Assembly: GCA_905250025.1 (NCBI GenBank)
Contig: CAJNOJ010000382.1
Coordinates: forward strand, 22,253-86,252
Source: Adineta ricciae
Taxonomy: Eukaryota > Rotifera > Eurotatoria > Adinetida > Adinetidae
DNA length: 64,000 nucleotides
Direction of reading: 5' to 3'
Below are positions 1-63,666 of the stretch, piece by piece (the stretch's first letter is position 1; every line of letters begins with the position of its first letter). A program made the position numbers and the translations under genes. A model generated the notes under the pieces. The model saw nothing but the letters and a program-made list of their open reading frames with translations, did not search any database and had not been told where the DNA came from.

Positions 1-1688
1 AAATCTTCGATTATCTCGATGGCATTGAACTCTTCCGAATCTTTCCTCATCTTAATTCACGTTTTACCGAACTCCTCTCGTTCTACTCACGCTATTATGA
101 TTTCAATTTTCAATCGATCACCAAGAACGAAATGGATTTGGTTTGTCAGGAATCATTTCGGGAGAATGTTTGGAAAATCTCCTCATTGACACTTTCCGAT
201 GATGATGATACGCCCTACCAGACTGAATTATTTTTCTCCTATAGATTACCTTTTCATAATTTCTTTTCATTACGATCGTTGTCTTTATATCATATCCGTT
301 CTAAAGTGGCATTCTATTGGTTATTATCAAACTTAAGGTTTTTTCCGCATTTCAACTACTTAAAAATCGATCAAATCGATATTGATCGACAGGATATTTA
401 TCCTTATTGTTACTCAATTTGGTCCCTGTTCGCTCTTACCGACCTTTACATATCCGATCCGAACCTTTTTCTCGATTATTTCTTGTACAATCTCGACATA
501 TCTGTATCTCTTAAGCGCCTACATCTATTGGAAATTTCGTTTCTTCCAACTGAATTCGAAACTTTACTCAAACATTCACCGTCCGTAGAAGAATTAACAA
601 TCGAAATCTACCAAGATTTGGATGACGATGATCTTTCCATTGACGCGGATTTGCAAAGCACTCTTCCATTAATAACAATCCTAAATCTAAAATTTACCGG
701 CTATTTCAGTGGATTAGATCATATTCTTCGATTAACACCACATGTACTCAAATTACACATCGAATTATTCAATCAGAAAATCGATGGCTATCAATGGCAA
801 GACTTGATTTGTAAACATTTACTGCACTTGTCAGATTTTCATTTAAAAATGTCGTTTTACTTGACAATGGACTACGATCTTGAAATGGAAGTCGATGAAT
901 TAGTTGAATCGTATCAGAGATCCTATTGGACTTTACAACGGCAACTGCATTTTCGTTGCCTATCCAATCTTGAATATAACAATTCGGAAGAGCAGTATTT
1001 CGTTCTGTTCTATAGTTTACCATACGTATTCGATGCATTCAAATATATCAAACCTGTTTACTCGAAGTCGACGTATAATTTTCAAGCCATCGAATGTGAA
1101 TCATATGACACCGTTCGCATTCTCTGTCTGGTTCCCGATGACGACAAACCTACTGATGAAATCGATGAAAGAATTCAATTTTCCAACCTTCGCCATCTTG
1201 TTATTGGTTATACATTCAAATATCTCGATATTTTCTGTCCAAAATTGAACTTTCTAACAATCCTCGACATTCAGTATCTCGATGGTCAAGTTCGATCGCA
1301 TGTGCAAACGTTACTCAATCGTGCACCTCGGTTACAAACGATCATTTTCAATAAGAATAACTGGTCGTTTTTTTTCCTTGCAAGTAATTCTGTTCGACGT
1401 CTGTCTATTCGAGATGGAATCTATTACAACATTCAACAATGCGAGCAACTATGTTCTTCTTCATTGTTTCAACAATGTCAAGTTTTAGAAATCAATCTTC
1501 AGAAGAAAACAAGTGTAGTCGATCTCATCAATCGAATAACGTGTCTACGAACACTAATTTTCCAGTGTCAATGCGAACAATGGAAAGAAAGTCCGACGAA
1601 ATTAGAAACATGGTTTAAACATTATTTACCATCGCGGTATTTGATTAAGCGAGACGAATTCGGATCGTTTCGACTGTCGCTACAGTAA
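1..1688 (+). CDS. F-box protein with LRR-like repeats, 5' end cut by window start
   Basis: The reading frame is open from base 3 to the stop at 1688, so the gene enters from outside the window. The first residues (EIFDYLDGIELFRIF) are the second half of an F-box, and copy B at 38476 shows the complete domain. The rest, about 520 residues, is rich in Leu, Asp and aromatic residues with irregular leucine-repeat spacing (RHLVIGYTFKYLDIF, LNFLTILDIQYL), as in bdelloid F-box/LRR-like proteins. F-box proteins are normally substrate adaptors of SCF ubiquitin ligases through Skp1; the substrate is unknown here. AATAAA at 1732-1737 lies 44 bases after the stop and is a likely poly(A) signal; copy B has lost it. 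No intron is visible. Family is clear, function inferred. Confidence 0.85.
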   Translation, partial: IFDYLDGIELFRIFPHLNSRFTELLSFYSRYYDFNFQSITKNEMDLVCQESFRENVWKISSLTLSDDDDTPYQTELFFSYRLPFHNFFSLRSLSLYHIRSKVAFYWLLSNLRFFPHFNYLKIDQIDIDRQDIYPYCYSIWSLFALTDLYISDPNLFLDYFLYNLDISVSLKRLHLLEISFLPTEFETLLKHSPSVEELTIEIYQDLDDDDLSIDADLQSTLPLITILNLKFTGYFSGLDHILRLTPHVLKLHIELFNQKIDGYQWQDLICKHLLHLSDFHLKMSFYLTMDYDLEMEVDELVESYQRSYWTLQRQLHFRCLSNLEYNNSEEQYFVLFYSLPYVFDAFKYIKPVYSKSTYNFQAIECESYDTVRILCLVPDDDKPTDEIDERIQFSNLRHLVIGYTFKYLDIFCPKLNFLTILDIQYLDGQVRSHVQTLLNRAPRLQTIIFNKNNWSFFFLASNSVRRLSIRDGIYYNIQQCEQLCSSSLFQQCQVLEINLQKKTSVVDLINRITCLRTLIFQCQCEQWKESPTKLETWFKHYLPSRYLIKRDEFGSFRLSLQ

Positions 1689-1759
1689 AAACAGTCCGCC
1701 CTTTTTTGTTTTGTACACATTGCATGACAGGAATAAATTATTTTGTTAAAAGTTTCTTG

Positions 1760-1767
1760 TATATAAG
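1760..1767 (+). promoter_or_regulatory. Candidate TATA box of the Cys-rich secreted protein gene
   Basis: TATATAAG ends 26 bases before the ATG at 1794 and is conserved at 40375-40382 in copy B, whereas neighbouring bases differ. If used, the 5' UTR would be very short. It sits only 72 bases after the stop of the F-box gene, so promoter and upstream 3' UTR overlap. Motif only; no transcript evidence. Confidence 0.35.
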
Positions 1768-1793
1768 AGACGGTGCGTTGATCGTATGTAGAA

Positions 1794-2747
1794 ATGACGG
1801 TGCTCTTCGTATTCTTCTGTATGTTGATACTTCGTTGTCAGAGTTTCATGAATATCGATCAATTTATGATGACGAACGAGACAAAAAGTCGAATGAACCT
1901 GACTTGTCTCTATTCCAATTATATGGTTACAGATTGTGAGTATTGCGTATACCAATATTATAGTTATGGATCGAACATCGAAGTCATTCAGGATTTTATT
2001 CAAATAACAAATACGTATAAAAGTTTCGCCGAACGATGCAATGGCTTTTCGAATCAAACTGATATTGGATATGGTAATTGTTCACCGTTGTCATATGAAA
2101 CATTTAATACATCGATCTTATGTATTTGTGCAACGAATTTATGTAATCATGATCTTGATTCGTGCCGATTTTCAGTTCAGAATCAAACACAATCAAATTC
2201 TGCACCAGTAAGTTTACCAGCATTGCTTCCTCGACTGCAGACATCGATTTCTTGTGTCAATTCATTGTTTTCTCAAACTGATACTGTCAATACGACTTAT
2301 TATTGTGCCAATTCGCACTCTCCTTATATCAATTTGACCGCATGCATTGAATATTATCGTGCAAATACAGTTTTATGTGTTCTTATACTTCAAGGCAATG
2401 GAACTTTGGCGGTCGGATTATCCGAAGACGAATATCGATTGATTCTGCTTGCAAATATCCAAAATATTCACTATTTTGATCAGTATTCCGGTGTAAGTGT
2501 AGCATATAATCAAAGTTCATCATACTTTTATGTGATTTACAAGCAAATAATTGATTCAAGTAACGAAACGTATATTCAACAAGTATGCTTTTGTGCCCAA
2601 GATAATTGCACGTCAAATATGACAAGCTGTCTTAATGCAAATCGATCATTAACCGTTACCAATAATGGTCAGAGTAATCGTTTTCTTTCTGAAGAAAATC
2701 AGATTAATATATACTTATTCATTTTCTTCTATTTCTTTTTTTATTAA
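1794..2747 (+). CDS. Secreted Cys-rich protein, Ly6-like motifs, possible GPI anchor
   Basis: The 317-residue product starts with a hydrophobic signal peptide (residues 1-17) and ends with a very hydrophobic tail after NQIN, consistent with a GPI-attachment signal or a C-terminal membrane anchor. Two halves each end in a similar Cys cluster: CICATNLCNHDLDSC (about 110-124) and CFCAQDNCTSNMTSC (about 265-279). The LCN-type ending resembles Ly6/uPAR three-finger domains, although the fold is not certain. There are many N-glycosylation sequons. The ATG is the first after the TATA-like site; AATAAA follows at 2767. It is probably a cell-surface glycoprotein. No ligand or role can be read from the sequence. 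Confidence 0.7.
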   Translation: MTVLFVFFCMLILRCQSFMNIDQFMMTNETKSRMNLTCLYSNYMVTDCEYCVYQYYSYGSNIEVIQDFIQITNTYKSFAERCNGFSNQTDIGYGNCSPLSYETFNTSILCICATNLCNHDLDSCRFSVQNQTQSNSAPVSLPALLPRLQTSISCVNSLFSQTDTVNTTYYCANSHSPYINLTACIEYYRANTVLCVLILQGNGTLAVGLSEDEYRLILLANIQNIHYFDQYSGVSVAYNQSSSYFYVIYKQIIDSSNETYIQQVCFCAQDNCTSNMTSCLNANRSLTVTNNGQSNRFLSEENQINIYLFIFFYFFFY

Positions 2748-9754: not shown

Positions 9755-11682
9755 CTAGTCTATCGACGCTGGCGATACACGCACTTTGCCTTCATTACGA
9801 AAGACAAGAAAGAATATGATTCCAACGGTAAATGACATGATCGATAAGGATGCGTACATCCACAGTAGTTTGGGATTGACAGTTACTGGTACAAGTGCAA
9901 AACCCAACGCACTACCAATGGCTGACGTGAAGAGAAAAAGAGACATGACGATTGATTTCATAGACGCAGGTGCTTGGGTAAAGGCGTATTCGAGACCGGT
10001 GATGGAAGCAAAGATCTCCGAGATAGCAATAAAAAAATACGATGGGATTTGCCAAGCAACGATTATATTGTTGTATTTCTGACATCCGTCACATGGTTTC
10101 ACAGCATAGTTAAAATTGGGTCCAGTCTGATAGATTTGATGTTGAACAAACGCTGACCATGCCATGGCAATCGAAACACAGATGAATCCACATGTGATAC
10201 GAGGAATGGATGGAAAATTAATTTTAAATCGTCGTAAAGATGGATAGATCACTTTATCGAAGATTGGAATGAAAGCAATCAGTACGATTGGATCAATATT
10301 CTGTAAGACATCATTGGGTAGAGGACCTAAGGAAATAAATATGGTTCTCATGAGAAATTGGATGATTAAAACCGACTTACCAACATTCATTTGTGCTGCT
10401 TGTGATACTAAATTAGTTCCCAATTGATTGTAGCAAATCCAATAGAAAGGATAGAAGAGAAAGACACGACAAGCTCGTGCTGCTTGTTTGAGATCATCAA
10501 TAAATTGGTTTTCTTTTGCCAATGCTAGTTTTTGTTCTTCATCTTGTATCGGCGATGCTGGATACTCTTTGGCATAATCTAACAGACCGGACCGATCGGG
10601 TTGTTTACCTAACTTTGATCGCATTCGAATGGCTTTGATCACGACACGACCCGCACGAAGTAGTAATGAACCCATTGGTGGTGAGAGAATGTATCGCTTA
10701 CGACCAAGTATTAGAACAACGATAGAACCAGTGAAAACGACCAAAGGTACGAGATAAGCAAGCCAAAATGAATAGTATTTTTCAATATTTGTCGTGGCTA
10801 TTGAGGAGATCGCACCAATATTGATAGCCCAATAAAACCAATTGAACATCGACTGTACCGTACTGAAAAATAGATACTGCATGTATTATAAAGATAAAGA
10901 GATCATTTCCAACAACTTACACTTTCGGATCAACAATTTTCCTTTTGCCTTTAATGTCTAGAAAGTAAAATCATCAAATCGATCTTCATTCAATCCGTAA
11001 ATCAAGTACCTTTGACCACGGCCTTCGTCACAGTGTACTGTTCGGCCATCAGCGGACTAACATTACTTTTCACACCACCAGTTCCCATGCCGATAATAGT
11101 CATAGCAACGATTAAACCTGGAAAAGCAACACCGGCGTTAAGCGATGGCGGTATACTCGATAAGACAAGCACCAGCAGTCCAACCATATAGATACAACAG
11201 GCCACCATAATCGTTTTATATTTGCCCCAAAATTGATCAGCAAGAATAGCACCAGCGATCGGTGTGAGATACGCAAAAAACTGGAAATATGTCGTTAAAG
11301 CGGTAGCAGTCTGTTGACCACGATTGAGCGCACCTGGTTGGGTGCTGTTTTCACTCGCTGGGGGAAATTGTATATAGTTTTGAAAAGGACCTGAAAGACC
11401 ATAGAAAGCAAAACGTTCACACAATTCACAGACGACAATCAACCAAGCTCCAATGGGTATTCGATCAGAAACATGTTCTAACGATATCATTTCCTCTTCT
11501 GTTGGCTCTCTATCGACGGATTGATCAGTCCATCCTACAGTAGTCTCCATATTTGTATTACTAACAGCTTTCATTTCAACAGCATCTTTGTCATCCGTAT
11601 TGTTGGCATTGTTGTTTTCACTAAGGTATGGGACATCTGTACTGATTACATTATTCATCTCAATATCGTCGTTGGCGTCCAT
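9755..11682 (-). CDS. POT/PTR-family proton-coupled peptide transporter (SLC15-like)
   Basis: Three exons on the minus strand: 11682-11010, 10957-10921 (37 bases) and 10862-9755, with introns of 52 and 58 nt; 605 residues. Exon 1 carries the family motif GMGTGGVKSNVSPLMAEQY, and exons 2-3 join into KRKIVDPKVTVQSMFNWFYW followed by AINIGAISS, the PTR signature. The product is a roughly 12-helix plasma-membrane symporter taking up di/tripeptides with protons. The extended acidic N-terminus and PTR2-like motifs are closer in look to fungal/plant PTR2 than to animal SLC15A1, though I cannot test that here. Start: ATG at 11682, the conserved one in copy B. A premature TAG relative to copy B removes the last residues after SID. 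Confidence 0.9.
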
Positions 11683-12390
11683 GTTTGTATGCAAATTCTC
11701 TTGATAGTTCTCTTTAGACTTGAAATTTATTTGTCGTATTTAAAACTTTTGATAACACACTTTTTCTTAACATATTGTAAAGATAAAAGATGGCTCGTGC
11801 TCTTTCTATTCTTTTCCTCTCTTTCTTCTGCTCTCGGTTGTTTTATCTTTATTTTGCCTTTCAAGGTACTTCTCATGTAAATATCACGCACAAGGATTAG
11901 TTGTTATTTTTACTTTGTTTAAATCCTTCAGAGAAACAGTTACAAGACATACCGACCCTCATCAAATGTATAGATGACTCGTTGTTCCTACACAACCAGG
12001 TTCTTAACAATGAAGGATAATTAGAATACTTTATTTTTCGTTGTCGAGATTTTGGTCTCTGTAAATCAGCAGATATTCAACAAGTTTGTCCCATACATAC
12101 GTTTTTTACTTTTATATTCTGTTTAGTCAAAGTACGATAATTTTTTCAAGTGTCTTCAGTACCGATAAATTTCATATTAAATACGTACTTGGAAAATAAT
12201 CATATACTTCGTCTCAAGATTTGATTGAGGATGGCTGGTCGTAGGATTGGAGGTGTAGTCATTCTTTCGTCGTTTTGCTACATGAAAATGTGCATTACTA
12301 AGTCTAATACATTGATCAATTATTTACAAGAATCGAAAAAAAAAGAAAATGAACGTTGGTTTAGATGAAACTTTTTTATTCATCCGAGTA
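11683..12390. other. Upstream region of the peptide transporter
   Basis: About 700 bases between the transporter start (minus) and the 3' end of the tetraspan gene (minus). It contains a pyrimidine-rich stretch (11800-11860 on plus). No conserved open frame; the 119-codon frame at 11521-11880 mainly overlaps the transporter exon antisense. Confidence 0.5.
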
Positions 12391-15732: not shown

Positions 15733-16269
15733 TTCACGTAAGAAAGATTCGACGACACTATTCGATTTGAATCTAAAATATGAGTAACCGATGATACGCT
15801 AAAATCTCATGACTCTGTTTTTGTTGCAACACAATGGTTTATGGAGATCGTAGCGAAAGAATACTTTTTATTTTATTACTCTCAAAGTATGGATAAGATA
15901 TAAAAAGCGATAAGCATACGACAGAAAAGGTGAATTCAGTTTTTGTATTTGACTAATTTTATTCTTTAATTCAACGTCAACACAACATCAGAGATGTACT
16001 AGTTACAAAAAGTTATTTTTACTCTTAATTAACATTCTGTGTCACCAGTATATTGCAAAGATTTTCCACAATTAAGTGCGTCATTTTGAATTATGTTAAG
16101 TAGACTCAAAAAAGAAAAAAAAAACTTTCTTTTTTTTTCAACAAATGCTCTCGACAAAAAGGATAACACCAAAAGCTTTTCTTCTTCTCTCTTGACGTGT
16201 AAACATCTTCTTGCTGAAGAATAAGAATTCATTTGATGTAACTCTTCATTTGTTTTATCACTGAACAGA
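15733..16269. other. Divergent promoter region, GTPase / receptor
   Basis: The GTPase (minus) and the 7TM receptor (plus) start from opposite ends, so this is a shared upstream region. TTTGAC at 15948-15953 marks the point where copy B carries an extra 404 bp (54664-55067). A-rich and T-rich runs lie at 16110-16140. No coding potential. Confidence 0.55.
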
Positions 16270-18737: not shown

Positions 18738-19904
18738 ATGATATCTAGGTGTAAAATATGTGAAGCACCAGCACAAGGTGTTTATTATGGATGCATCGCA
18801 TGTAAATCATGCAAAACATTCTTTAAACGAAACGCCGAGAAACAGGTTAGTTGACGCGTTGCATTGCTCGGAGAAATTGTGTTTGTTTTTAGAGAATACG
18901 TCGATGTTTGTATGGGAATAATTGTCATATTATAAATATTAGTAATGGACATATTTGTACATGTTGTCGATTGAAGAAATGCCTGGAGAACGGTATGGAT
19001 ACAGCCAGATTTCGAGAGCCTTGGAAGAACTCAAAGCAGAACAAATTGATTGCACAAAACTCGAATATAATCACACTTAAAACGCCTGAAAAGGTTCGAC
19101 ACATTCCTAATCTTCAGTGAATGATGAATCTGTTTTTATCTATAATTTCAGCTGCCAACTTTAAATCTACTGGCAGCAGATCAATCAGATTTGACCAGCG
19201 ATCAATGGAAACTTCTTTCGAATTTGTTACAATGTTATGACGAATACAGTGGGTTATTAATTGGTCGAAATTACCTGCATGAACAAAACAAACTTCCTGT
19301 TAAACTACGCTATAAGCCCGTAACAGTGATTGAGTTAATCACTTCACTAATGCGTCAGAATCCTCTTCTGTACATCAATAATCGAGATTTCATTGATCTA
19401 TCGGAAAATGATCGTGCACTTCTATTGGATAACACTCTTGTCTACACAACAACAAGTTCTGTGAACTTTGTTCATTCTCAAATCGGTCTCAATGATTTAC
19501 CTGTTTTTCTCGAGGCTGTCGGACTGATTAGTCATCCAAGTTACATTCCAACTGTTCAACAAGTTGCTCATCGTATAGTTCCGGATAGTATTATCATGAA
19601 ATTGTTGTTCGCAATCATCTCCTTCTCAACTGTGCAATACACGGTCTATCGAGACGAACCTCCTCGAAATCTATCGAACATCGCCCGAATCCTAAAAATT
19701 CAAGACAAATACGTTGACTTAGCATGGCGATACTTAGTCTACACTTACAAATTTGAGTGGACAGTGAAGTATTTTTCCGATCTGTTACGATTTTTATTTG
19801 TTATACACGATGGTGTAAGAAAAGCTGAGGAAGTTAAATGGTACACAAATACAATTGATTCTTTAACTCAACAAACAAAAGATGTTCTAACTGTCGAAGA
19901 CTAG
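18738..19904 (+). CDS. Divergent nuclear receptor (DBD + LBD)
   Basis: Exons 18738-18845, 18893-19093 and 19152-19904; introns of 47 and 58 nt, all phase 0; 353 residues. Zinc module 1 has C5, C8, C22, C25 with P-box CKSCK and FFKRN. Module 2 starts RRCLYGNNC and ends CTCCRLKKCLENGM. Between its second and third Cys are ten residues, one more than the canonical nine found in copy B. The C-terminal 250 residues are a diverged ligand-binding domain (helix-3-like segment near RDFIDLSENDRALLLDNT). It is a ligand- or constitutively regulated transcription factor acting in the nucleus; the subfamily is not recognisable. A decayed paralogue follows at 20427. Confidence 0.85.
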
Positions 19905-20426: not shown

Positions 20427-21125
20427 ATGCAGTGTAAGTGTAAAATTTGTGGAGAATCTGCTACTTGTTGTTTTTACGGATGTATCGCATGTAAATCGTG
20501 CAAAATGTTTTTCAGAAGAAACGCCGAGAAACAGGTCAGTTCGCACGATCGTTGTTCGTCTCTTCATTCGACAGGTTTTATTCTATTGGATACACTTCAA
20601 TATCGTTAGGATGGCAATTGTGATGTGAATAATCGACATTTTTGTGGTTTTTGTCAATTGAGGAAATGTTTTGCAAGTGGAATGGAAGCTGTCAGATTTC
20701 GAGAAAGTTTGCAAAAGTCAAACAAAAACAAGTCGGTGACAAAACAATCAACTGCGGTCGGTGTGAAAACGCTCGCCAAGGTTCAGTTTATGACTAGTTT
20801 TTCCTTCATATATAATTTTAGTTACCTACATTGAACCCTTTAGCCGGAGATCAATCGGATTTGACTAGCGAACAAGGCGAGCTTGTTTCAAATTCTATAC
20901 ATTATTATGATGAGTATAGTAGATTAATAATTGGTCGCAACTATATGTATGAACAAAGCAAACTTTCTGTGAAACTACGCTATAAGTTCTGGATTTACTT
21001 CAGTCATTAATGCGCCAAAACCAATTGATCTACACCAACAACCGAGATTCTGCAGAGTTATCTGAAGATGATCGGTCGATTCTATTAGATAACACACGTT
21101 GACATTTGCTACATTAAGTTCAGTG
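20427..21125 (+). pseudogene. Nuclear-receptor pseudogene, paralogue of 18738 gene
   Basis: The first exon (20427-20534) is intact and the same 108-base length as in the neighbour: MQCKCKICGESATCC... with CKSCKMFFRRNAEKQ. The second exon has lost the first Cys of zinc module 2 (a TAG stands just before DGNCDVNNRHFC). The LBD exon starts like LPTLNPLAGDQSDL, then after KLRYK a frameshift and stop cut it short, and only broken pieces follow. It probably arose by tandem duplication of the intact gene. Copy B is more decayed. Confidence 0.8.
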
Positions 21126-21156
21126 AACTTCTTTTTATTTGGTAGCTTCAAAGAAA

Positions 21157-22116
21157 TTAGATACGCAAAGTCATGTTCGGATGAGTTTTGCTAAATTCCA
21201 TTCGTAGTGTTTGAATTTCTTCCGAGGAGAACATATTGTTATTAATATAAAGTTCCGCAAGGTATTTTAATTTGAAAATGCTTCGTGGCAAATGAACGAG
21301 TTTGTTATGAGACAAATCCAAATGATAGAGTCTTTGCAGTTTGTCAATCGTGCTCGGAATCGATATCAGTGTTGTATTTCGAAGTTCCAGAATAGCGAGA
21401 TAAGTGAAAGAATCGATTGAACTTATATCTTTCAACGGATTATTGTTCATCCGAAGAATTGCCAGACTAGTCGGAGTTTTGAAAAATGGTATTTCGGTGA
21501 AGAGATTATCAGCAACATGTAAGCAATCCACATCGGTTCGAAATCCTTCGATTCTTGACAGACGATTATTGTCAAGATAAACATGTCGTAAATACGGCAT
21601 GTTACTCAGACTGGGAATCTCGGAAAGCGAGCAATTATTCAAGGTTAATGAATAGAGATGAATGAGAGACGAAAATTGATTGGTTAAATTCATAATCGAC
21701 GAGTTCAACATTTGAATGGTGTTCACTTGTTGTAAATTTGCCAAACTATCGGGTACAATGCCTAATAGGAAAACTCAGTTGAACTCCAAACAACATGTTT
21801 TCATCTTACCATCTGAGAAAGCACCATTTACAATCGTCAGTCCGGTCAGTTTTTTCAAACAAAAGAGAATTTCAGGAATAGGAGTGTTTCCATCGATTAG
21901 TGAAAGTGAAGAAACAAAAGTATTCGTTCTGTCCATAGTCGCCGAATTGCTCGCTGGATAATGCAACATCGGGTTGATTCTAATACGAAATGGAAAATCC
22001 AATAGCACTTCATAGTCATTTGCATAGCGTGAACAATCGATTTTGAGTGATTCGTTGGTAGTTGTATACGTAACCAATGTACATGATATCAGAAAAAGAA
22101 TTCTGTAGACAGTCAT
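21157..22116 (-). CDS. Secreted leucine-rich-repeat protein 1
   Basis: Exons 22116-21810 and 21761-21157; 48-nt phase-1 intron; 303 residues. A signal peptide (MTVYRILFLISCTLVTYTTT) is followed by a Cys-containing N-terminal region (IDCSRY, FCLKKL) and about six to seven leucine-rich repeats, for example LRHVYLDNNRLSRIEGF and LYHLDLSHNKLVHLPRSIF, ending THPNMTLRI. It has no TM helix after the repeats, so it is probably secreted or peripherally bound. Neighbour 22221 is a paralogue with the intron at the same place. The partner is unknown; adhesion or recognition is the general LRR role. Confidence 0.85.
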
Positions 22117-22220: not shown

Positions 22221-23197
22221 TTAAATACACAGAGTGATATTTGGATGACTCATATTAAAATACGTTTTGATTGTTTCAATTTCTTGATCGGAGAATGAAT
22301 TGTTATTAACGAAGAGTGTGTTAAGTTTATTTAATTCGAGAATATTGAATGGTAGATAAAATAAGTCGTTGTAAGATAAATCAAGACGCTCAAGTTTTTG
22401 CAGTTTGTTAATCGTCGGTGGAATGGAGGTGAGAGTTGTATTGTGAAGATCAACTCGCTCTAAGTTGATAAACGAATCAAGTTTGATGATATTTCGTAAA
22501 GGATTATTATTCATGGTAAGTTCTTCGACGTATGCGGGGATTTTTACAGTCGGTATTTCAGAGAAGAGATTGTTCGAGAGTGACAAACTGAGAATGTCCC
22601 CGTCTAATCCATCAAGTTTCGATAGATGATTGCGATCAAGTTCAATATGCCAGACATTCGACAAATTACTCAGATTAGGTAATTGCGGAAGTGAACAGTT
22701 GACCAAGATTAACCAATAGAGATGTTTTAAAACCGTTAATTGATTCGTCATCTTAGTAATCGTCGTGTTGATTATTTCAAGACGTTGTAATATTTGTAGA
22801 TCTGCCAGACTATCCGGAACTATACCTAAGAAAAACGTACACTTGATACTAATAGAGACTAATAAGAAAGTTTGTCACCATCGCTGAAGACCATATTTTT
22901 GATGATTAAATATTTAAGTTCTTTCAAGCAGAAGATACTCTCAGGAACAACACCATTTGGCTCGACGAGCGTCAGTGAATTGACAACACGTTCTGTCGGA
23001 TACATAGTAGCAATACTTTCATTCGTATGAATTGTTTCTGGATTAATTAAAACGGGAAACGGAAATTGTTTGAGAATTTCATAGTCATCAAGATAATGTT
23101 CACAACCGAGAGATGGTGATCGGTGAAATACAGCATCACTATATTTCACCGTCCAATAGAAGATGACGTATAGAACAACGATTTTACATTCAGTCAT
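22221..23197 (-). CDS. Secreted leucine-rich-repeat protein 2
   Basis: Exons 23197-22879 and 22825-22221; 53-nt phase-1 intron; 307 residues. The start is the ATG giving MTECKIVVLYVIFYWTVKYS, a signal peptide. The layout matches LRR protein 1: N-terminal Cys region (LGCEHY, FCLKEL), junction at GIVPDSLADLQ, then repeats such as VWHIELDRNHLSKLDGL and LERLDLSYNDLFYLPFNIL, ending SHPNITLCI. The exon 2 length is identical (605 bases) to that of the neighbour, a clear tandem duplicate. Extracellular recognition is likely; ligand unknown. Confidence 0.85.
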
Positions 23198-24425: not shown

Positions 24426-24600
24426 TCATTCCCAATCTACTTCGAATTTTTCCACTCGATTATTCTCAGTATCAGCAACAATGAGATTTCCGTGCCTATA
24501 GAATCGTATATCATGTGGTTCACTTAAATATCCCACCCATCTTCCTTTACCATTCTCATCAATAAGAACTTCATCTTATTTGTCTCCTTGATATCATCGT
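24426..24600 (-). pseudogene. NHL-repeat gene fragment
   Basis: The minus strand reads DEVLIDENGKGRWVGYL, then EPHDIRFYRHGNLIVADTEN and NRVEKFEVDWE before a stop: one NHL (beta-propeller) blade and a gene's C-terminus. A TAA directly precedes the first residue and no further blades follow before the repeat boundary at 24632. The same fragment, with an added frameshift, lies at 63459-63640. Confidence 0.65.
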
Positions 24601-24644
24601 AGAATTCGGTTATTTTCTGAGTCTGCGATATAGGTATCCGTCAA

Positions 24645-24812
24645 GAATGTCCGTTAGAAAATGTCCTTTAGAAAACGTCCTCAAGTTTTGGTCCTTTTAG
24701 GAAATGTCTTGTGTTGTAAATGGCCTTTTAAAAAATGTCCTTTAGAAATAGGCCTTTGTCATTTGGTCCTATGAAAAAATGTCCTCCATTATTGGAATGT
24801 CCTTTCGGTATA
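24645..24812. repeat. Degenerate short repeats at the copy A breakpoint
   Basis: About ten imperfect units around AAATGTCCTTTAG (also GTCCGTTAG, ACGTCCTC, GGTCCTTTTAG, GGCCTTTT) begin 13 bases after homology to copy B stops. They look like a decayed minisatellite. Not found in copy B. Confidence 0.7.
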
Positions 24813-25667
24813 AAACAAAGAAACAGTCGATGGGTAGTGTAAATAATCTATTTTCTATTATAACGAGTCAAATTNGTCATCTATACCAGTATTAATTAGA
24901 TAACAAGTTTTCCATTTATGTTCGATATATTTGTTCATCTGATGTATTTTCTTTTCGATTTCAGTAGTAATCATTGGGTAAGCTTATTTTCTGTCAACTA
25001 TGACTGGACAAACTGATTACCAAGTACAAGAGGGCCGAATGAAGAGTCCCACGATGAACTGTTCCTCCATCCCCAGTTCCTCTAATGACTCGAAATGGAA
25101 ATGATCAAAGAGAACGGCATCGGCATCGGATGTCTGATTCTAGTTGCTTTGGAAATACATGCACAATTATACCATAATAGCTTGGGAAGGGGGACGCGAA
25201 AGAAAATGTCTACATCAACGACTGATTCACAGCGTGTTGACTTCGTGTAGAACGTATTAAGAATAAAATTTGTTCACGTTCTGACTGTACCGTGGATCGA
25301 ACGATGATAAGCTTTTGTTCCGTTATTGACAATCCTTTATCTCTTCCTTTGATTACAAATTTAATTGTGTTGTTTAGAAAAAAGTTCCGATGAACTTTAG
25401 TTTCTTTGAATGACAAAACATATATTAGTAGAAAGATAACACAAATCGAGGTCGATTCAATGACCAATCTACCCGAGTTGGAAAATTTTGTTTTCAGTCC
25501 GTGCAAGGGAAATTTTTATTATGTGAATAAAATATACACAACGCTCGTCGACATTAGCTCGCATTACCCTCGACTGAAATAGTAGTTCAGCGTACAATAG
25601 TTTTCATTCATGTTTCACATAAAAAAAACAGAAATATCTAATTAGATTTAACTTCTCGAGAACTATC
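24813..25667. other. Single-copy spacer with an ambiguous base
   Basis: AT-rich, no gene recognised. The only N in the window is at 24875. A minus-strand frame at 25210-25506 has no ATG start and no recognisable similarity. Confidence 0.5.
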
Positions 25668-25820
25668 TGTAACGATAATGATATCCTCTCCTTCTGTTTT
25701 CCTCTCTCTATATAAGCGTGTGTCTTATTGTGAAGCAGACACATTATGGATACGTGAGTAAGCTCAATAAACGTCTATACCGCCAGAAACGCTTAGCTGC
25801 TCAAACAGTTTGTCGTTACA
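25668..25820 (+). mobile_element. Probable solo LTR, 153 bp
   Basis: The element starts TGTAACGA and ends TCGTTACA, a perfect 8-bp inverted terminus of TG...CA type. Inside are a TATA box (TATATAAG, 25709-25716) and, 49 bases on, a poly(A) signal (AATAAA, 25766-25771) in the order of an LTR promoter and terminator. No primer-binding site, gag/pol or second LTR is next to it, so a solo LTR is most likely. No clear target-site duplication (left flank ACTATC, right flank CCTATT). A short terminal-inverted-repeat DNA element is the alternative. Confidence 0.55.
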
Positions 25821-26315
25821 CCTATTTCTCCATCAAAGTCGCCATTCGTCTATGTACTTGATGAAGACAACACTTTCGTTTCATAAGAGGGAGAAAGTCT
25901 CCTTTGGCGAAAGAGAGACAACTCGATACATTTTGTAAAACTATACTGAAGCTCTCAATTCGAAGCGTTTTCATTTTCACCCACCTAGTGTAGATATCAG
26001 TATCTGCGATAACATTGATGCGCACTAATCAAGCTGTATCATGATCATGATGAAGCTAAGCTTATTTCGTAGAAGTGCAGCACAAAAATATACTCTTGTC
26101 TACTTTCAAAAGAACGGGTGTATTGACAAATGATTGGGTTGATCTTCAACAACTTTCATCATCGGTATTGTCTTCATTTTCATGCATATACAAGTTCAAC
26201 GTTAAAACACATTACGAGAAAAACTTCAGAGAGAGAAAGGTCGCATACAAGGGAAAATTAGAAGGGGGGGGGGGATTCCCCTCCTGCTCCCCCCGCAAAT
26301 CGTAAACCCTGGATC
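25821..26315. other. Spacer with an 11-G run
   Basis: No gene is recognised. An 11-base poly-G run (26264-26274) followed by C-rich CTCCCCCC (26288-26294) could form a strong hairpin or G-quadruplex and may be a sequencing trouble spot. Confidence 0.5.
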
Positions 26316-26415
26316 TAGGTGCAAAAATAGTAAATGATAATTGTGTTCATTTTCAGGCATTAGGTGCAAAAATAGTAAATGATAATTGTGTTCATTTTCA
26401 GGCATTAGGTGCAAA
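26316..26415 (+). repeat. 45-bp tandem repeat, 2.2 units
   Basis: Two perfect 45-base units (26316-26360 and 26361-26405) and ten bases of a third. Each unit starts TAGGTGCAAA and contains GTAAAT...TTTTCAG, a splice-donor/acceptor-like pair only 27 bases apart. Perfect identity means the duplication is recent. Confidence 0.9.
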
Positions 26416-37361: not shown

Positions 37362-38110
37362 ATGATCAATCACTTGATAAGATTTGTAATCGCGGCAAAT
37401 ATTATTCTTGCCAAAGCAGTCCATAGTACTCATCCAACAACAACTAGCCTTCATATACGTAATTTAGATTCATTCAGAAAGTTTTGCAATAACAGTTCCA
37501 AGATTAAAACTAATAAATCCTTAACCATAGCCAAGCGCTACTCTCTCAATGTCGTTTATAGTCGGGGACTCAACACAACTAGTGAAATGCTTCGAAATCT
37601 ATTCTATGAACACGCACAAGCTCGACGTTTTATAATCAAGAACGAACAGATTTTCGTTCCCTTTCGTTTGACTCCAGATAAGCTCATCAAGAAATTGCAA
37701 GCGGTATGCTCAATGGGAAAACGCCTGTGCTCCACGAACGGCATATGTACTTTATCCATTTCAATTCTTTAAATTATCCACAACCGGTATACATTAATAT
37801 GATACGAAATCCTATGCGAAGAGTCGTGTCAAGAATACTATTGGACACGTGAAATTTGTCGCGACGAGAATCGATGCTATTTCGATTTGAAATTTCTGAA
37901 TGAAACATTGGATGAATGTGTTACTGTGCCACATGGAGTTAATACCATTCTAACTGTAACACTCCGTCTGGCTTTTCACTAGTGACAGCGAAGAAGAATA
38001 TTATTAACCATTACACAGTTGTTGGCATCGTTGAAGAATTGTGCAACTTCTTATTTGTACTCGAACGATTATTACCACGGTTCTTTAGCAATATCTGTCT
38101 CACATATATG
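37362..38110 (+). pseudogene. Decayed heparan/uronyl 2-O-sulfotransferase-like gene
   Basis: An open 136-codon frame begins with a signal-anchor-like helix (MINHLIRFVIAANIILAKAV) and includes VVYSRGLNTTSE where the family has its 5'-phosphosulfate loop (normally with a Lys, here lost). After a stop and frame changes the 3'-phosphate region is still readable: YPQPVYINMIRNPMRR, then CQEYYWTREICRDENRCYF and NETLDECV, and INHYTVVGIVEELCNFLFV with RLLPRFF. Intact members sit in the Golgi and transfer sulfate to uronic acid of glycosaminoglycans. At least two frameshifts and several stops make this copy dead. Confidence 0.7.
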
Positions 38111-38475
38111 ACATATAGAAAATAGCATACGAACGACTGGTAGACGACTAGAACCAAGCGATACGACCCTAGCGTCGTTAGGTACAGCACTTGATCTGGA
38201 ATATAAACTTTACCATTTTGTCAAGAAACGTTTTCGAGACCAATTTCAACAAGTTTTACTAATCAAATCTGATATTTGATCTTCTTTTGTGATGCATTTT
38301 GCTCTCCCGTTTTCTTCTTGTTTGTATCCGACAGGAAATATATTTTCTTTCGTTCGTTCTATATGATTTATGAAATTATACGTTCTCATTGTTTTGACTA
38401 CTCCTTGCGCACGTGTATTCGATTGTTGATTTCATCTATAGCTGATGAAAACTGAAAAAAAGCCAACGTGACGGT
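38111..38475. other. Spacer before copy B F-box gene
   Basis: No gene is recognised. Homology to copy A cannot be judged here because the corresponding part of A lies outside the window. Confidence 0.5.
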
Positions 38476-40302
38476 ATGAGAATCATGGATGAAAAGAATT
38501 GCAATGAAAGCAACGAAGAAAAATGTGATGCCAAATTTCTTTTGCTTCACAAACATCGAATGAATTCGTCTAAAAAAATGCAATTCGAATCGTTACCCAA
38601 TGACTTACTACTCGAAATCTTCGATTATCTCGATGGCATTGAACTCTTCCGAATCTTTTCTCATCTCAACTCACGTTTTACCGAACTCCTCTCTTTCTAC
38701 TCACGCTATTATCATTTCAATTTCCAATCGATCACCAAAAACGAAATGGATTTGGTTTGTCAGGAATCATTTCGAGAGAATGTTTGGAAAATCTCCTCAT
38801 TGACACTCTCCGATGATGATGACACGCCCTACCAGACTGAATTATTTTTCTCCTACAGATTGCCTTTTCATAAGTTCTTTTCATTACGATCGTTGTCTTT
38901 ATATCATATCCGTTCTAAAGTGGCATTCTATTGGTTATTATCAAACTTAAGCGTTTTCCCGCATTTCAGCTACTTAAAAATCGATCAAATCGATATTGAT
39001 CGACAGGATATCTATCCTTATTGTTACTCAATTTGGTCCCTGTTCACTCTTACCGACCTTTACATATCCGATCCGAACCTTTTTCTCGATTATTTCTTGT
39101 ACAATCTCAACATATCTGTATCTCTTAAACGCTTACATCTATTGGAAAGTTCGTTTCTGCCAACTGAATTCGAAACCTTACTCAAACATTCACCGTCCGT
39201 AGAAGAATTAACAATCGAAATCTACCAAGATTCGGATGACGATGATCTTTCCATCGACATGGACTTGCAAAGCACTCTTCCATTAATAACAATCCTAAAT
39301 CTAAAATTTACCGGCTATTTCAGTGGATTAGATCATATTCTTCAATTAACACCACATGTACTCAAATTACACATCGAATTATTCAATCAGAAAATCGATG
39401 GCTATCAATGGCAAGACTTGATTTGTAGACATTTAATGCACTTGTCAGATTTTCACTTAAAAATGTCGTTTTATCTGACGATGGACTGCGATCTTGAAAT
39501 GGAAGTCGATGAATTAGTTGAATCGTATCAGAGATCCTATTGGACTTTACAACGGCAACTGCATTTTCGTTGCCTATCCAATCTTGAATACAACAATTCG
39601 GAAGAGCAGTATTTCGTTCTGTTCTATAGTTTACCATACGTATTCGATGCATTCAAATATATCAAACCTGTTTACTCGAAGTCGACGTATAATTTTCAAG
39701 TCACGGAATGTGAATCATATGACACCGTTCGTATTCTCTGTCTGGTTCCCGATGACGACAAACCTACTGACGAAATCGATGAAAGAATTCAATTTTCCAA
39801 CCTTCGCCACCTTGTTATTGGTTACACATTCAAATATCTCGATATTTTCTGTCCAAAATTGAACTTTTTAACAATCCTCGACATTCAGTATCTCGACGGT
39901 CAAGTTCGATCGCATGTACAAACGTTACTTAATCGTGCGCCTCGATTACAAACGATCATTTTCAATAAGAATAACTGGTCGCTATTTTTCCTTGCGAGTA
40001 ATTCTGTTCGACGTCTATCTATCCGAGATGGAATCTATTACAACATTCAACAATGCGAGCAACTATGTTCTTCTCCATTGTTTCAACAATGTCAAGTTTT
40101 AGAAATCAATCTTCAGAAGAAAACAAGTGTAGTCGATCTCATCAATCGAATGACGCGTCTGCGAACACTAATTTTCCAGTGTCAATGCGAGCAATGGAAA
40201 GAAAGTCCGACGAAATTAGAAACATGGTTTAAACATTATTTACCATCGCAGTATTTGATTAAGCGAGACGAATCCGGATCGTTTCGACTGTCGCTACAGT
40301 AA
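38476..40302 (+). CDS. F-box protein with LRR-like repeats, copy B (complete)
   Basis: 608 residues from ATG 38476. Residues about 36-72 form the F-box (FESLPNDLLLEIFDYLDGIE, continuing LFRIFSHLNSRFTELL), which binds Skp1 in SCF ubiquitin ligases. The remaining 530 residues are Leu-rich with irregular repeats and acidic patches (SDDDDLSID). A later ATG (MNSSKKMQFES) just before the F-box could be the real start. Against copy A about 21 of 518 shared residues differ. The AATAAA after the stop in A reads GAAAAAATT here. The substrate is unknown. Confidence 0.9.
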   Translation: MRIMDEKNCNESNEEKCDAKFLLLHKHRMNSSKKMQFESLPNDLLLEIFDYLDGIELFRIFSHLNSRFTELLSFYSRYYHFNFQSITKNEMDLVCQESFRENVWKISSLTLSDDDDTPYQTELFFSYRLPFHKFFSLRSLSLYHIRSKVAFYWLLSNLSVFPHFSYLKIDQIDIDRQDIYPYCYSIWSLFTLTDLYISDPNLFLDYFLYNLNISVSLKRLHLLESSFLPTEFETLLKHSPSVEELTIEIYQDSDDDDLSIDMDLQSTLPLITILNLKFTGYFSGLDHILQLTPHVLKLHIELFNQKIDGYQWQDLICRHLMHLSDFHLKMSFYLTMDCDLEMEVDELVESYQRSYWTLQRQLHFRCLSNLEYNNSEEQYFVLFYSLPYVFDAFKYIKPVYSKSTYNFQVTECESYDTVRILCLVPDDDKPTDEIDERIQFSNLRHLVIGYTFKYLDIFCPKLNFLTILDIQYLDGQVRSHVQTLLNRAPRLQTIIFNKNNWSLFFLASNSVRRLSIRDGIYYNIQQCEQLCSSPLFQQCQVLEINLQKKTSVVDLINRMTRLRTLIFQCQCEQWKESPTKLETWFKHYLPSQYLIKRDESGSFRLSLQ

Positions 40303-48419: not shown

Positions 48420-50368
48420 TTAAAAGCTCGTTTGTTGGTTCTCTTCAATCGACGCTGGTGATACACGCACTTTGCCTTCATTACGAAAGACGAGAAAGAA
48501 TATGATTCCAACGGTAAATGACATGATCGATAAGGAAGCGTACATCCACAGTAGTCTGGGATTGACGGTTACTGGCACAAGTGCAAAACCTAGCGCACTA
48601 CCAATGGCTGACGTGAAGAGAAAAAGAGACATGACGATTGATTTCATCGAAGCAGGTGCTTGGGTAAAGGCATATTCAAGGCCGGTGATGGAAGCAAAGA
48701 TCTCCGAGATAGCGATAAAAAAATACGATGGGATTTGCCAAGCAACGACTATATCGTTGTACTTCTGACATCCGTCACATGGTTTCACAGCATAGTTAAG
48801 ATTGGGTCCAGTCTGATAGATTTTATGTTGAACAAACGATGACCATGCCATGGCAATTGAAACACAGATGAATCCACATGTAATACGAGGAATGGATGGA
48901 AAATTAATTTTAAATCGTCGTAAAGTTGGATAGATCACTTTATCGAAGATTGGAATGAAAGCAATCAGTACGATTGGATCAATATTCTGTAAGACATCAT
49001 TGGGTAGAGGACCTAAAGAAATAAATATGCTTCTAATGAGAAATTGGATGATTAAAACTGACTTACCAACATCCATTTGTGCTGCTTGTGATACTAAGTT
49101 AGTTCCCAGTTGATTGTAACAAATCCAATAGAAAGGATAGAAGAGAAAGACACGACAAGCTCGTGTTGCTTGTTTGAGATCATCAATAAATTGGTTTTCT
49201 TTTGCCAATGCTAGTTTTTGTTCTTCATCTTGAATCGGCGATGCAGGATACTCTTTGGCATAATCTAACAGGCCGGACCGATCAGGTTGTCTACCTAACT
49301 TTGATCGCATTCGAATGGCTTTGATAACGACACGACCCGCACGAAGTAGTAATGAACCCATTGGTGGTGAGAGAATGTATCGCTTACGACCAAGTATCAA
49401 AACAACGATAGAACCAGTGAAAACGACCAAAGGTACGAGATAAGCGAGCCAAAACGAATAGTATTTTTCAATATTTGTCGTGGCTATTGAGGAGATTGCA
49501 CCAATATTGATGGCCCAATAAAACCAATTGAACATCGACTGTACCGTGCTGAAAAATAAATACCGCATTTATCATAAAGACGAACAAATCACTTCCGAAA
49601 ACTTACACTTTCGGATCAACAATTTTTCTTTTGCCTTTGATATCTAGAAAGCAAAATCATCAAATCGATCTTCATTCAATCCGTAAATCAAGTACCTTTA
49701 ACCACGGCTTTCGTCACAGTGTACTGTTCGGCCATCAGCGGACTAACATTACTTTTCACGCCACCAGTTCCCATGCCGATAATAGTCATAGCAACGATTA
49801 AACCTGGAAAAGCAACACCCGCGTTAAGCGATGGCGGTATACTCGACAAGACAAGCACCAGCAGTCCAACCATATAGATACAACAGGCCACTATAATTGT
49901 TTTATATTTGCCCCAAAATTGGTCAGCAAGAATAGCACCAGCAATCGGTGTGAGATATGCAAAAAACTGGAAATATGTCGTTAGAGCTGTGGCAGTCTGT
50001 TGGCCACGATCGAGCGCACCTGGCTGGGTACTATTTTCATTCGCTGGGGGAAATTGTATATAGTTTTGAAAAGGACCTGAAAGACCATAGAAAGCAAAAC
50101 GTTCACACAATTCACAGACGACAATCAACCAAGCTCCAATGGGTATTCGATCAGAAACATGTTCTAATGAAGCCATTTCCTCTTCTGTTGGCTCTCTATC
50201 GACCGATTGTTCAGTCCATCCTACAGTAGTCTTCATATTCGTATCACTAACAGCTTTCATTTCAACAGCATCCTTGTTATCCGTATTGTTGGCATTGTTA
50301 TTTTCACTAAGGTATGGGGCATCTGTACTGATGACATTATTCATCTCAATATCGTCGTTGGTATCCAT
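48420..50368 (-). CDS. POT/PTR-family peptide transporter, copy B
   Basis: Exons 50368-49696, 49643-49607 and 49548-48420; 612 residues. Exons 1 and 2 have exactly the same lengths as in copy A (673 and 37 bases). Motifs GMGTGGVKSNVSPLMAEQY and FNWFYWAINIGAISS are conserved. The C-terminus runs seven residues longer than in A (after SIE: ENQQTSF), because A has a TAG there. A proton-coupled di/tripeptide importer by family. Confidence 0.9.
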
Positions 50369-51097
50369 GTTGTATGCAAATTCTCTTGGTAGTTCTCTTT
50401 AGATTTGAAATTTATTTGTCGTATTTAAAACTTTTGATAACACACATTTTCTTAACATATTGTAAAGATAAAAGACGGCTCGTTCTCTTTCTATTCTTTT
50501 CCTCTCTTTCCCCTGCTCTCGGTTGTTTTATCTTTATTTTGTCTCTCAAGGTATTCCTCATGTAAATATCGCGCACAAAGGATTAGTTGTTATTTTTACT
50601 TCGTTTAAATCCTTGAGAGAAACAGTTACAAGACATGCCTACCTCCATCAAATATATAGACGACTCGTTGTTTCTGCACAACCAGATTCTTAACAATGAA
50701 GAATAATTAGAATACTTGAATTTTCATTGCCGAGCTCTTAGTCTCTGTAAATCAGCAGATATTCAACAAGTTTGTCCCACACATATATTTTACATTTACA
50801 TCCTGTTTAGTCATACGTAGATTGATTATTTTTTCAATTGTTTTCAGTACCGATAAATTTTATATCAAATATGTATTTGGAAAATAATCATATAAATCGC
50901 CTCAAGGATTTGACATAGAAGATCTTTTTGATTGAGGATGACTGGTCGTAGGATTGGATGTGTAGTCAGTCTTTTGCCGTTCTGCTACATATGAAAATGT
51001 GTACTACTAAGTCTAATACATTAGTCAATTATTTACAAGAATCGAAGAAAAGAAAATGAACGTTGGTTTACATGAAGTTTTTTCATTCATCCGTGTA
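50369..51097. other. Upstream region of the peptide transporter, copy B
   Basis: Counterpart of 11683-12390, with a similar pyrimidine-rich stretch at 50485-50520. No conserved coding frame. Confidence 0.5.
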
Positions 51098-54442: not shown

Positions 54443-55378
54443 TTCACGTAAGAAAGATTTGACGACACTATTTAATTTGAATCTAAAATATGAGTAACCG
54501 ATGATACGCTAAAACGTCATGAGTCTGTTTCTGTTGCAGCACAATGTTTTATGGAGCTCGTAGCGAAAGTATACCTTTTATTTCATTACTCTCAAAGTAT
54601 GGATAAGATATGAAAAGAGATAAGCATACGATAGGAAAAGTGAATTCAGTTTTTGTATTTGACGTTATTTAATCTTATTAATTCAATGTTTATGGTAAGT
54701 AGTAGACTCAGGTAACGAATAGGCTGTTTTTTGTTTTCGTTGATGACTTGAAAACAAATTGTTGATTTCTTGATTTTTAGATTTTCGACGTTTCGACTTT
54801 CAACTATGTGGTCATTGTCAAGAGGTAGATGTTGTTTGCAGCTCATTTTCTATTGTACCACCGAAAAATTGAAAAAATCAAAAGTCAGCAATTTGTTTTC
54901 AAGTCATCAACGAAAACAAAGTACAGTCTATTCGTTATCTGAGTCTACTACTTACAATAAATATTGAATTAATACAATTTATCTCATGCTGATCTCTATC
55001 GTCAATATCATTGAAACATATGATATCTTCAATTTTGAATAAAAAAAAGTTATCTAGTCTATTTGACTAATTTTATTCTTTAATTCAACGTCAACACAAC
55101 ACCAGAGATGTACTAGTCACAAAAATTTAATTTCACTATTAATTAACATTCTATGTCATCAGTATTTTTCAAAGATTTCCTACAATCAAGTGCGTCATTT
55201 TGAATTATGCTAAGTATGCTCAAAAAAGAAAAAAAAAACTTTCTTTTTCTCTACAAATGGTCTTGACATAAAGGATAACATCGAAAGCTTTTCTTCTTCT
55301 CTCTTGACGCGTAAACATTTTCTCGTTGAAGAAGAACTCAGTTGATGTAACTCTTCATTTGTTTTATCACCGAACAGA
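54443..55378. other. Divergent promoter region, copy B, with extra 404 bp
   Basis: Shared upstream region of the GTPase and the 7TM receptor. Relative to copy A it carries 54664-55067, bounded by TTTGAC at 54658-54663 and 55062-55067. Inside that block is a MITE-like element (listed separately) plus about 95 bp of other DNA. Confidence 0.7.
54678..54972. mobile_element. MITE-like element with ~90-bp terminal inverted repeats
   Basis: Left arm starts TTCAATGTTTATGGTAAGTA at 54682; the right arm, read on the minus strand from 54968, starts TTCAATATTTATTGTAAGTA. The two arms stay about 90% alike for roughly 90 bases (GTAGACTCAG, AACGAATAG, TTTTCGTTGATGACTTGAAA). Both ends abut TTAA (54678-54681 and 54969-54972), as a piggyBac-type target duplication would. 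The centre has no coding capacity. Absent from copy A. Confidence 0.75.
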
Positions 55379-59970: not shown

Positions 59971-60930
59971 CTAGATACGCAAAGTGATATTCGGATGAGT
60001 TTTGCTAAATTCCATTCGTAGTGTTTGAATTTCTTCCGAGGAGAACATATTGTTATTAAGATAAAGTTCCGCAAGGTATTTTAATTTGAAAATACTTCGT
60101 GGCAAATGAACGAGTTTGTTATGAGACAAATCCAGATGATAGAGTCTTTGCAGTTTGTCAATCGTGCTCGGAATCGATATCAGCGTTGTATTTCGCAGTT
60201 CCAGAATAGCGAGATAAGTGAAAGAATCGATTGAACTTATATCTTTCAACGGATTATTGTTCATCCGAAGAATTGCCAGACTAGTCGGAGTTTTGAAAAA
60301 TGGTATTTCGGTGAAGAGATTATCAGCAACATGTAAGCAATCCACATCGGTTCGAAATCCTTCGATTTTTGACAAACGGTTGTTGTCAAGGTAAATATGT
60401 CGCAGGTATGGCATGTTACTCAGACTGGGAATCTCGGAGAGTGAACAATTCGTGAAGGTTAATGAGTAGAGATGAATGAGAGACGAAAATTGATTAGTTA
60501 AATTCATAATGGATGAGTTCAAAATTTCAATGGTGTTCAATTGTTGTAAGTTTGCCAAACTATCGGGTACAATGCCTAATAGGAAAGCTCAGTTGAACTC
60601 CAAACAACATGTTTTCATCTTACCATATGGGAAAGCACCGTTTACAATCGTCAGTCCGGTCAATTTTTTCAAGCAAAAGAGACTTTCAGGAATAGGAGTG
60701 TTTCCATCGAGTAGTGAAAGTGAAGAAACAAAAGTATTCGCTCTGTCCATAGTCACCGTGTTGCTAGCCGGATAATTCAACATTGGGTTGATCTTGATAT
60801 GAAATGGAAAATCCAATAACACTTCATAGTCACTTGTATAGTGTGAACAATCGATTTTGAGTGATTCGTTGGTAGTTGTATACGTAACCAAGGTACATGA
60901 TATCAGAAAAAGAATCCTGTAGACAGCCAT
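59971..60930 (-). CDS. Secreted leucine-rich-repeat protein 1, copy B
   Basis: Exons 60930-60624 and 60575-59971; 303 residues, exon lengths identical to copy A. Signal peptide MAVYRILFLISCTLVTYTTT; repeats such as LRHIYLDNNRLSKIEGF conserved. Differences concentrate in the N-terminal Cys region and first repeats. Confidence 0.85.
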
Positions 60931-61034: not shown

Positions 61035-62011
61035 TTAAATACGCAGAGTGATATTTGGATGACTCATATTAAAATACGTTTTGATTGTTTCGATTTCTTG
61101 ATCGGAGAATGAATTGTTATTAACGAAGAGTGTGTTGAGTTTGTTTAATTCGAGAATATTGAATGGTAGATAAAACAAGTCGTTGTAAGATAAATCGAGA
61201 TGCTCAAGTTTTTGCAGTTTGTTAATCGTCGGTGGAATGGAGGTGATAGTTGTATTGTGAAGATCAACTCGCTCTAAGTTGATAAATGAATCAAGTTTGA
61301 TGATATTTCGTAAAGGATTATTATTCATGGTAAGTTCTTCGACGTATGCGGGCATTTTCACAGTCGGTATTTCAGAGAAGAGATTGTTCGAGAGTGACAA
61401 TCTGAGAATGTCCCCGTCTAATCCATCAAGTTTCGATAGATGATTGTGATCAAGTTCAATATGCCATACTTTCGACAAATTAGTTAGATTCGGTAGTTGT
61501 GGAAGTGAACAATTGACCAAGGTCAACCAATAGAGATGCTTTAAAGACGTTAATTGATTCGTCATTTTAGTAATCGTCGTGTTGATAATTTCAAGGCGTC
61601 GTAAAATTTGCAGATTTGCCAGACTGTCCGGAAGTATGTCTAAGAAAAACGTACATTTGATACTGATAGAGACTAACGAAAAAGCTTGTCACCGTCAGTA
61701 AAGACCATATGTTTGATGATTAAATATTGAAGTTCCTTCAAACAGAAGATACTCTCAGGAACAACACCATTTGGTTCGACGAGCGTCAGTGAATTGACAA
61801 CACGTTCTGCCGGATGCATCGTAGCTATGCTTTCATTCGCATAAATTCTTTCTGGATTGATTAAAACGGGAAACGGAAGCTGCCTGAGAATTTCATAGTC
61901 ATTAAGATAATGTTCACAACCGAGAGATGGTGATCGGGGAAACACAGCATCACTATATTTCACCGTGCAATAGAAGATGACGTATAGAACAACGATTTTA
62001 CATTCAGTCAT
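61035..62011 (-). CDS. Secreted leucine-rich-repeat protein 2, copy B
   Basis: Exons 62011-61693 and 61639-61035; 307 residues as in copy A. The residue formed over the splice junction is Asp here (DDILPDSLANLQ) rather than Gly. LRR consensus segments (VWHIELDHNHLSKLDGL, LEHLDLSYNDLFYLPFNIL) are conserved. Secreted; ligand unknown. Confidence 0.85.
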
Positions 62012-62294: not shown

Positions 62295-62359
62295 CTACAG
62301 CAAAGAGAGAGAGAGAGAGGGTTCATAATAGTAAGTTGATGTATACGAAATTTGATATC

Positions 62360-62881
62360 TCATTGATTTTTTCGTAGTTTATATGTAGTATACCAATACG
62401 TCATTTCATCGGAATTTGGAAACGTCTTGGTTCTTCGCTGAGTTGTTTCTTGATCCATGCTGGTACCTAAGCATGGTCTTCCTTTCGGGACAGCATCACA
62501 CCAAGCATGACCTGCTTGTTTGGGTTTTGTTTTAATATGTATTTCAAAACCAATATGCTTCTTTTGTTGACTGCCTTCAGGAGGTATGTCAGCATCGATA
62601 GTAAAGCGAACTTTCCATTCATGTCCAAGAGGAAATACTGATGTTCGCTTGTTAATTATTCCTTCAAATTCGGCGTCAACTTGTACGACTCCTTCGTTGA
62701 TATGTTTGTGAAAATTAACGAACGCTTCGCATGATTCTAATTCTTCTATAATGGCTCGTTGTGCTGCATTTGTAATTATGCCGTCAGCGAAGTTGTCAAG
62801 ATGTTGACCCATGACTTGGATTATATCTCGATTTGCTGCTTCCAAACTTGAAGCATCCCAATCATAAACAGTCTGTGCCAT
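62360..62881 (-). CDS. Unknown conserved protein, copy B, 173 residues
   Basis: Begins MAQTVYDWDASSLEAANRD. The core (HEWKVRFTIDADIPPEG, KHIGFEIHIKTKPKQAGHAW) is nearly identical to copy A. One added Ala-type residue (WCDAVPKGRP) and a different end (LRKNQ). The sequence upstream is out of frame with A, so this ATG is the shared start. Family not recognised. Confidence 0.7.
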   Translation of the reverse strand: MAQTVYDWDASSLEAANRDIIQVMGQHLDNFADGIITNAAQRAIIEELESCEAFVNFHKHINEGVVQVDAEFEGIINKRTSVFPLGHEWKVRFTIDADIPPEGSQQKKHIGFEIHIKTKPKQAGHAWCDAVPKGRPCLGTSMDQETTQRRTKTFPNSDEMTYWYTTYKLRKNQ

Positions 62882-63458
62882 TTCAGTCGTGATTATTTCT
62901 GATCTTCTGATGATGAAAATTAACAGTAAAGTATGTTATTAGCAATATATCACGCGTATTTATATGCAGCGACGTTGTTTGGTATTTTCCAATGGATGTT
63001 GTTCTATATGCGCTGACGTACGATCGTTGTCGATAATTTTCTTTCCTCCAGTAGACAAATGTGGGTCGTGTATCAGAACGATGCGAGTTTTGGTAAGACG
63101 AAGTAAATACGTCACTGAGCCCGAGAATGAATGATTCACATGCAGGAACATTCCAACACGTTGTCTTAGAAAAGATTGATATCAGCTCCAAATAAACTAA
63201 CTACTTTTATGAACAGAGATCATATGGAATTTGTACATGCTATAAATCAATGGCACTGCATCCACCGTTAACAATCTTATAGACATTTGTTACGTTCCAT
63301 GTGAATAGACGATTTGCGTCTTTCGAAAAATTTGTATTCTTATATTTTTACTTGTACGATGTTATTTATTACTATAACAACGATAACAATATCAACAAAG
63401 ATATCGAAAACCTAATATTATCACACTTCTCGAGTTATTGTAATCGATATTAACCATT
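62882..63458. other. Upstream region of the unknown gene, copy B
   Basis: Counterpart of 23868-24425. The minus-strand frame (63151-62960, MFLHVNHSF...) is open here too but with many residue-changing differences. No gene is called. Confidence 0.45.
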
Positions 63459-63640
63459 TCATTCCCAATCAACTTCGAATTTTTGCACTCGATTATTCTC
63501 AGTATCAGCAACAATGAAGATTTCCGTGCCTATAGAATCGTATATCATGTGGTTCACTTAAATATCCCACCCATCTTCCTTTACCATTCTCATCAATAAG
63601 AACTTCATCTTATTTGTCTCCTTAATACCATCATAGAATT
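63459..63640 (-). pseudogene. NHL-repeat gene fragment, copy B
   Basis: Same remnant as 24426-24600, with one extra base (CAATGAAGATTTCC against CAATGAGATTTCC) that shifts the frame. Homology with copy A ends 26 bases further, at 63666. Confidence 0.6.
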
Positions 63641-63666
63641 CGGTTATTTTCTGAGTCGGCGATATA

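Follow-up and report, generated by a model that had tools for sequence, protein, structure and literature searches.

Homologous blocks residing on the same scaffold have been reported in bdelloid rotifers, and formerly served as an argument that chromosome pairing is impossible in these animals (per PMC5916493). In the 2013 assembly of Adineta vaga, 23 of 25 such blocks were palindromes, and 2 were tandem arrays (per PMC5916493). A single palindrome was found in another A. vaga assembly (PMC7749112), and A. vaga long-read assemblies contain uncollapsed haplotypes (PMC8178825). Jaron et al. counted 19 palindromes in A. vaga and none in three other bdelloids, and warned of scaffolding errors (PMC7953838).

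In Adineta ricciae, homologous blocks share a scaffold in two cases only, ARIC00305 and ARIC00659; the linked blocks are arranged in tandem in both, and palindromes are absent among them (PMC5916493). The assembly was made with SSPACE, GapFiller, SSPACE-LongRead, transcript scaffolding and Redundans, and PacBio reads were among the scaffolding data (PMC5916493). Many collinearity breaks cross scaffold gaps, and Nowell et al. suspected from this that at least some of them are scaffolding errors; one break was found in the unscaffolded assembly, a test limited by the fragmentation of the latter (PMC5916493). In vertebrates, gaps on the same scaffold between duplicated pairs, or unsupported gap-fill, mark false duplications, and such gaps were not found for true ones (PMC9516828). 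Literature searches for a later long-read or ploidy paper on A. ricciae, and for tandem or segmental duplication in this species, retrieved neither, no rotifer title being among the matches listed.

A direct repeat in A. ricciae

The stretch of A. ricciae DNA analyzed here, 64,000 nucleotides in length, is referred to as the window. When the window is compared to itself by blastn, positions 1–24632 (copy A, forward strand) pair with positions 38615–63666 (the part of copy B, forward strand, having a counterpart in the window) in six main collinear same-strand blocks, 86–93% identical. The extent of both copies was defined by blastn and mafft. In the global alignment up to 24632, 1,734 substitutions were counted over 24,101 aligned bases (7.2%), with a transition/transversion ratio of 2.3; the gaps are 85, in an alignment extending past the end of the repeat. 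Differences per 500-base segment mostly range from 3% to 15%, with peaks of 22% at 18001 and 16% at 20501. No match at E<=1e-3 was obtained when copy B was shuffled in blocks of ten bases. The collinear blocks, the global alignment and the null control together indicate that the repeat is truly present in the sequence.

The coding potential of the two copies was compared in 17 ORF pairs, corresponding to every listed copy A ORF of at least 150 codons and paired via the alignment. Codons broken by gaps, and codons replaced by a stop in copy B (one each in 4 of the 17 ORFs), were left out. Over 5,044 codons, 93.4% of the residues are identical; as the ORFs are stop-to-stop frames rather than curated gene models, some of the codons compared may be intronic. 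The collinear direct copies described in the initial annotation are thus confirmed by the six blocks, while the residue difference, put there at about 4%, is 6.6%. Two diverged leucine-rich-repeat ORFs lie in tandem in both copies (21157–21774 and 22221–22874 in A, 59971–60588 and 61035–61688 in B; about 65% identical DNA), and a second, older direct pair is found within copy A (18746–19468 and 20435–21130, 66% identical).

SLC15A4-like peptide transporter ORFs (Pfam PTR2) are located at 48423–50398, minus strand, with counterparts at 9755–10885 and 11002–11739 in copy A. The best PDB matches of the 48423–49568 segment are SLC15A4 chains, and two GT...AG intron-like gaps were seen by eye in both copies. 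This transporter and its intron-like gaps speak for animal DNA. No tRNA was found in the window by ARAGORN in its bacterial setting, and no Rfam match at gathering scores. Relatives of the SLC15-like protein were not found in a genome contig collection, nor were relatives of an F-box-like protein (see below) and of a 20-base pattern at the end of the repeat in a viral contig collection; as these collections include viruses, bacteria and archaea, the result says little.

Copy B carries a 396-base hairpin insertion (54664–55059) missing from copy A. The insertion is flanked by 8-base direct duplications TATTTGAC, located at 54656–54663 and 55060–55067, and is matched in copy A by a single empty site (15946–15953). 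The right tail of the element, about 80 bases, is non-palindromic. A private insertion facing an empty site denotes independent histories of the two copies, as expected of alleles, but also of old duplicates, and is equally compatible with both.

Edges of the repeat

Base 38615 aligns to the first base of the window, and falls inside an ORF (38449–40302, first Met at 38476) which is weakly F-box-like, below the Pfam cut-off. The ORF begins upstream of 38615 in copy B, and the equivalent ORF in copy A (3–1688) is open at its 5' end, at the window edge. On its left, the block is therefore bounded by the edge of the window itself, and of the repeated unit only the right break, at 24632 and 63666, is visible. 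The initial annotation had placed the copies 14 kb apart; a spacer of this size is not established, as the figure reflects the truncation of copy A at base 1.

The middle stretch, or M (24876–38614, forward strand), continues without N into copy B, the F-box-like ORF spanning 38615. M has no match at E<=1e-3, by tblastx and blastn, to copy A, copy B or the last 334 bases of the window, and could form the left portion of the unit of copy B instead of a spacer. At 32820–36803, forward strand, an NHL-repeat ORF is followed by same-strand ORFs which terminate in a weak rhodopsin-like 7TM match, under the Pfam cut-off, and these frames could possibly encode one receptor with an NHL ectodomain. A perfect 45-base tandem repeat (2.2 copies) is found at 26316–26415.

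The sole true break visible in the window lies between 24632 and 24633 in copy A, and between 63666 and 63667 in copy B. In both copies, it falls where a decayed NHL-repeat relic ends (24429–24632, minus strand; counterpart ending at 63666), recognized by Pfam NHL at 27.5 bits in the 24429–24575 piece. Stops were found at four positions in at least one copy among the 60 codons scanned; one of these positions is common to both copies, two are confined to copy B and one to copy A. The 137 bases at 24453–24589, directly before the break, feature no substitutions and one internal 1-base indel. Such runs reach 171 bases elsewhere, compared to about 100 expected if changes are evenly spread; as longer runs thus exist, nothing is concluded from this stretch.

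Past the break, no similarity was found between the sequences following the two copies. Copy A is followed by a tail of 242 bases (24633–24874, forward strand), in which AATGTCC/TTAGAAAA motifs are irregularly arrayed. The tail has no counterpart after copy B, and may perhaps derive from gap-filling or from the terminus of a mobile element. Runs of two or more TGTGGG units were not found in the window. The sequence after copy B (63667–64000, forward strand) has no detectable similarity to that following copy A; several GACGC and CGCGTTC motifs are found there, and the CpG observed/expected ratio is 1.44, versus 1.18 for the window.

The tail is followed by the only N of the window, at 24875, 243 bases beyond the break. 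The chance that a uniformly placed N falls this near the break is 0.8%, a figure calculated post hoc. We infer a scaffold join at this N, though an isolated N may also stand for an ambiguous base. SSPACE outputs a single n where a gap is negative and no overlap exists. In the excerpts of the scaffolding literature available, SSPACE-LongRead turns a positive gap into one or more N, and no statement of the one-n rule for negative gaps was found.

Origin of the two copies

Ks between copies A and B is 0.129 (bootstrap over ORFs 0.111–0.147) and Ka 0.030, both over 17 ORF pairs, and the GC content of the window is 35.4%. Mean homolog KS is 0.135 in A. ricciae, given also as 0.14 +/- 0.036, and 0.05 in A. 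vaga; ohnolog means are 1.27 and 0.61, respectively. The published GC content of A. ricciae is 35.6%, compared to 30.8% for A. vaga and to 32.6% and 31.9% for two Rotaria (all values from Nowell et al. 2018, PMC5916493). Divergence of the copies fits the allelic level of A. ricciae, not that of A. vaga nor that of ohnologs, in a comparison covering published values of four bdelloid species, which other bdelloids could share. The likeness to A. vaga allelic divergence proposed in the initial annotation does not hold, as both GC and Ks are nearer A. ricciae. The A. vaga assembly papers meant there are presumably Flot 2013 and Simion 2021.

A real head-to-tail duplication and haplotypes joined by the assembler had both been left standing as explanations. 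The second is favored here, on account of the allele-level Ks, the N placed 243 bases past the break and the published precedent. Since the copies differ like alleles and a putative assembly gap lies next to their junction, an error of scaffolding is the most likely cause of the doubling, and we assign a probability of about 0.7 to the reading that two haplotypes were set head to tail by scaffolding. Copies A and B would be two alleles of one chromosomal region of A. ricciae, sufficiently diverged for the assembler to keep them in distinct contigs. One of these, carrying haplotype A, would end in short repetitive sequence just beyond 24632, and a scaffolding step would have set it before the contig carrying M and B, leaving the single N at 24875. 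Both features of false heterotype duplication (PMC9516828) which could be tested in the window were found, namely copies diverging as much as the alleles of the genome (Ks 0.129, against an A. ricciae mean of 0.135), and a gap on the same scaffold between the pair, provided that the N is indeed a join.

Some considerations weigh on the other side. An allele-level Ks would equally be produced by a true joining of two homologues. PacBio reads were among the scaffolding data, and a join made by long reads carries some weight. Misjoins occurring at random would rarely bring together alleles of one locus, and the scaffolding reading therefore presupposes that misjoins are more frequent between haplotypes. 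Moreover, the 24633–24874 tail differs from the sequence following copy B, which calls for a further event, whether a rearrangement, faulty gap-filling or a true difference between the haplotypes.

The main competitor is a real tandem duplication by unequal joining of homologues, in which haplotype A is followed by haplotype M-B on one molecule, for example when breaks situated at non-equivalent sites of two homologues are repaired. The region involved would span at least about 39 kb. The head-to-tail geometry suits it, as the left limit of the block is out of view and M may start the unit; if so, the unit would measure about 38.6–39.0 kb, and no spacer would exist. Divergence at the allelic level is its expected outcome, long reads were used in the published scaffolding, and both linked cases in A. 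ricciae are tandem, none palindromic (PMC5916493). Unbroken sequence is expected across a true tandem; here the determined sequence at the A-M junction is interrupted by the N, 243 bases beyond the break, and gaps of this type were not found for the true duplications of the vertebrate study (PMC9516828). Unequal joining is held unlikely, about one chance in five.

An ordinary old tandem duplication in one chromosome, the copies of which have since drifted apart, would account for the direct orientation, the collinearity and the private insertion in B. It is regarded as improbable, as agreement of the copies with the allelic divergence of the genome would be a coincidence, and an N adjoins the break. 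Bdelloids carry ohnologous blocks (PMC5916493), but the bringing together of two paleotetraploid segments is hardly credible for copies which are collinear throughout and have a Ks of 0.129, as Ks values around 0.6–1.3 and lower collinearity would be expected.

Comparison with linked homologous blocks

If the copies were joined by scaffolding, the window adds one more reason to discount same-scaffold homologous layouts in bdelloids. A genuine arrangement would directly record repair between homologues. In a real tandem, heterozygosity would be fixed permanently in cis; the other homologue would retain a third copy, differing very little from A or B, and read depth would be 2:1 between the copies.

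The window resembles the 2013 A. vaga blocks in having homologues linked on one scaffold. In contrast to those blocks, which are mostly palindromic, copies A and B are in tandem, and their Ks is more than twice the A. vaga mean. False heterotype duplications (PMC9516828) are similar to the window in that divergent alleles are adjacent on one scaffold and a gap falls where they meet; they were described in vertebrates, and diagnosed there also by read depth and discordant pairs. The closest likeness is to ARIC00305 and ARIC00659, which like the window feature homologous blocks on one scaffold, tandem and not palindromic, and from which no difference is known; the window may itself be one of these two cases.
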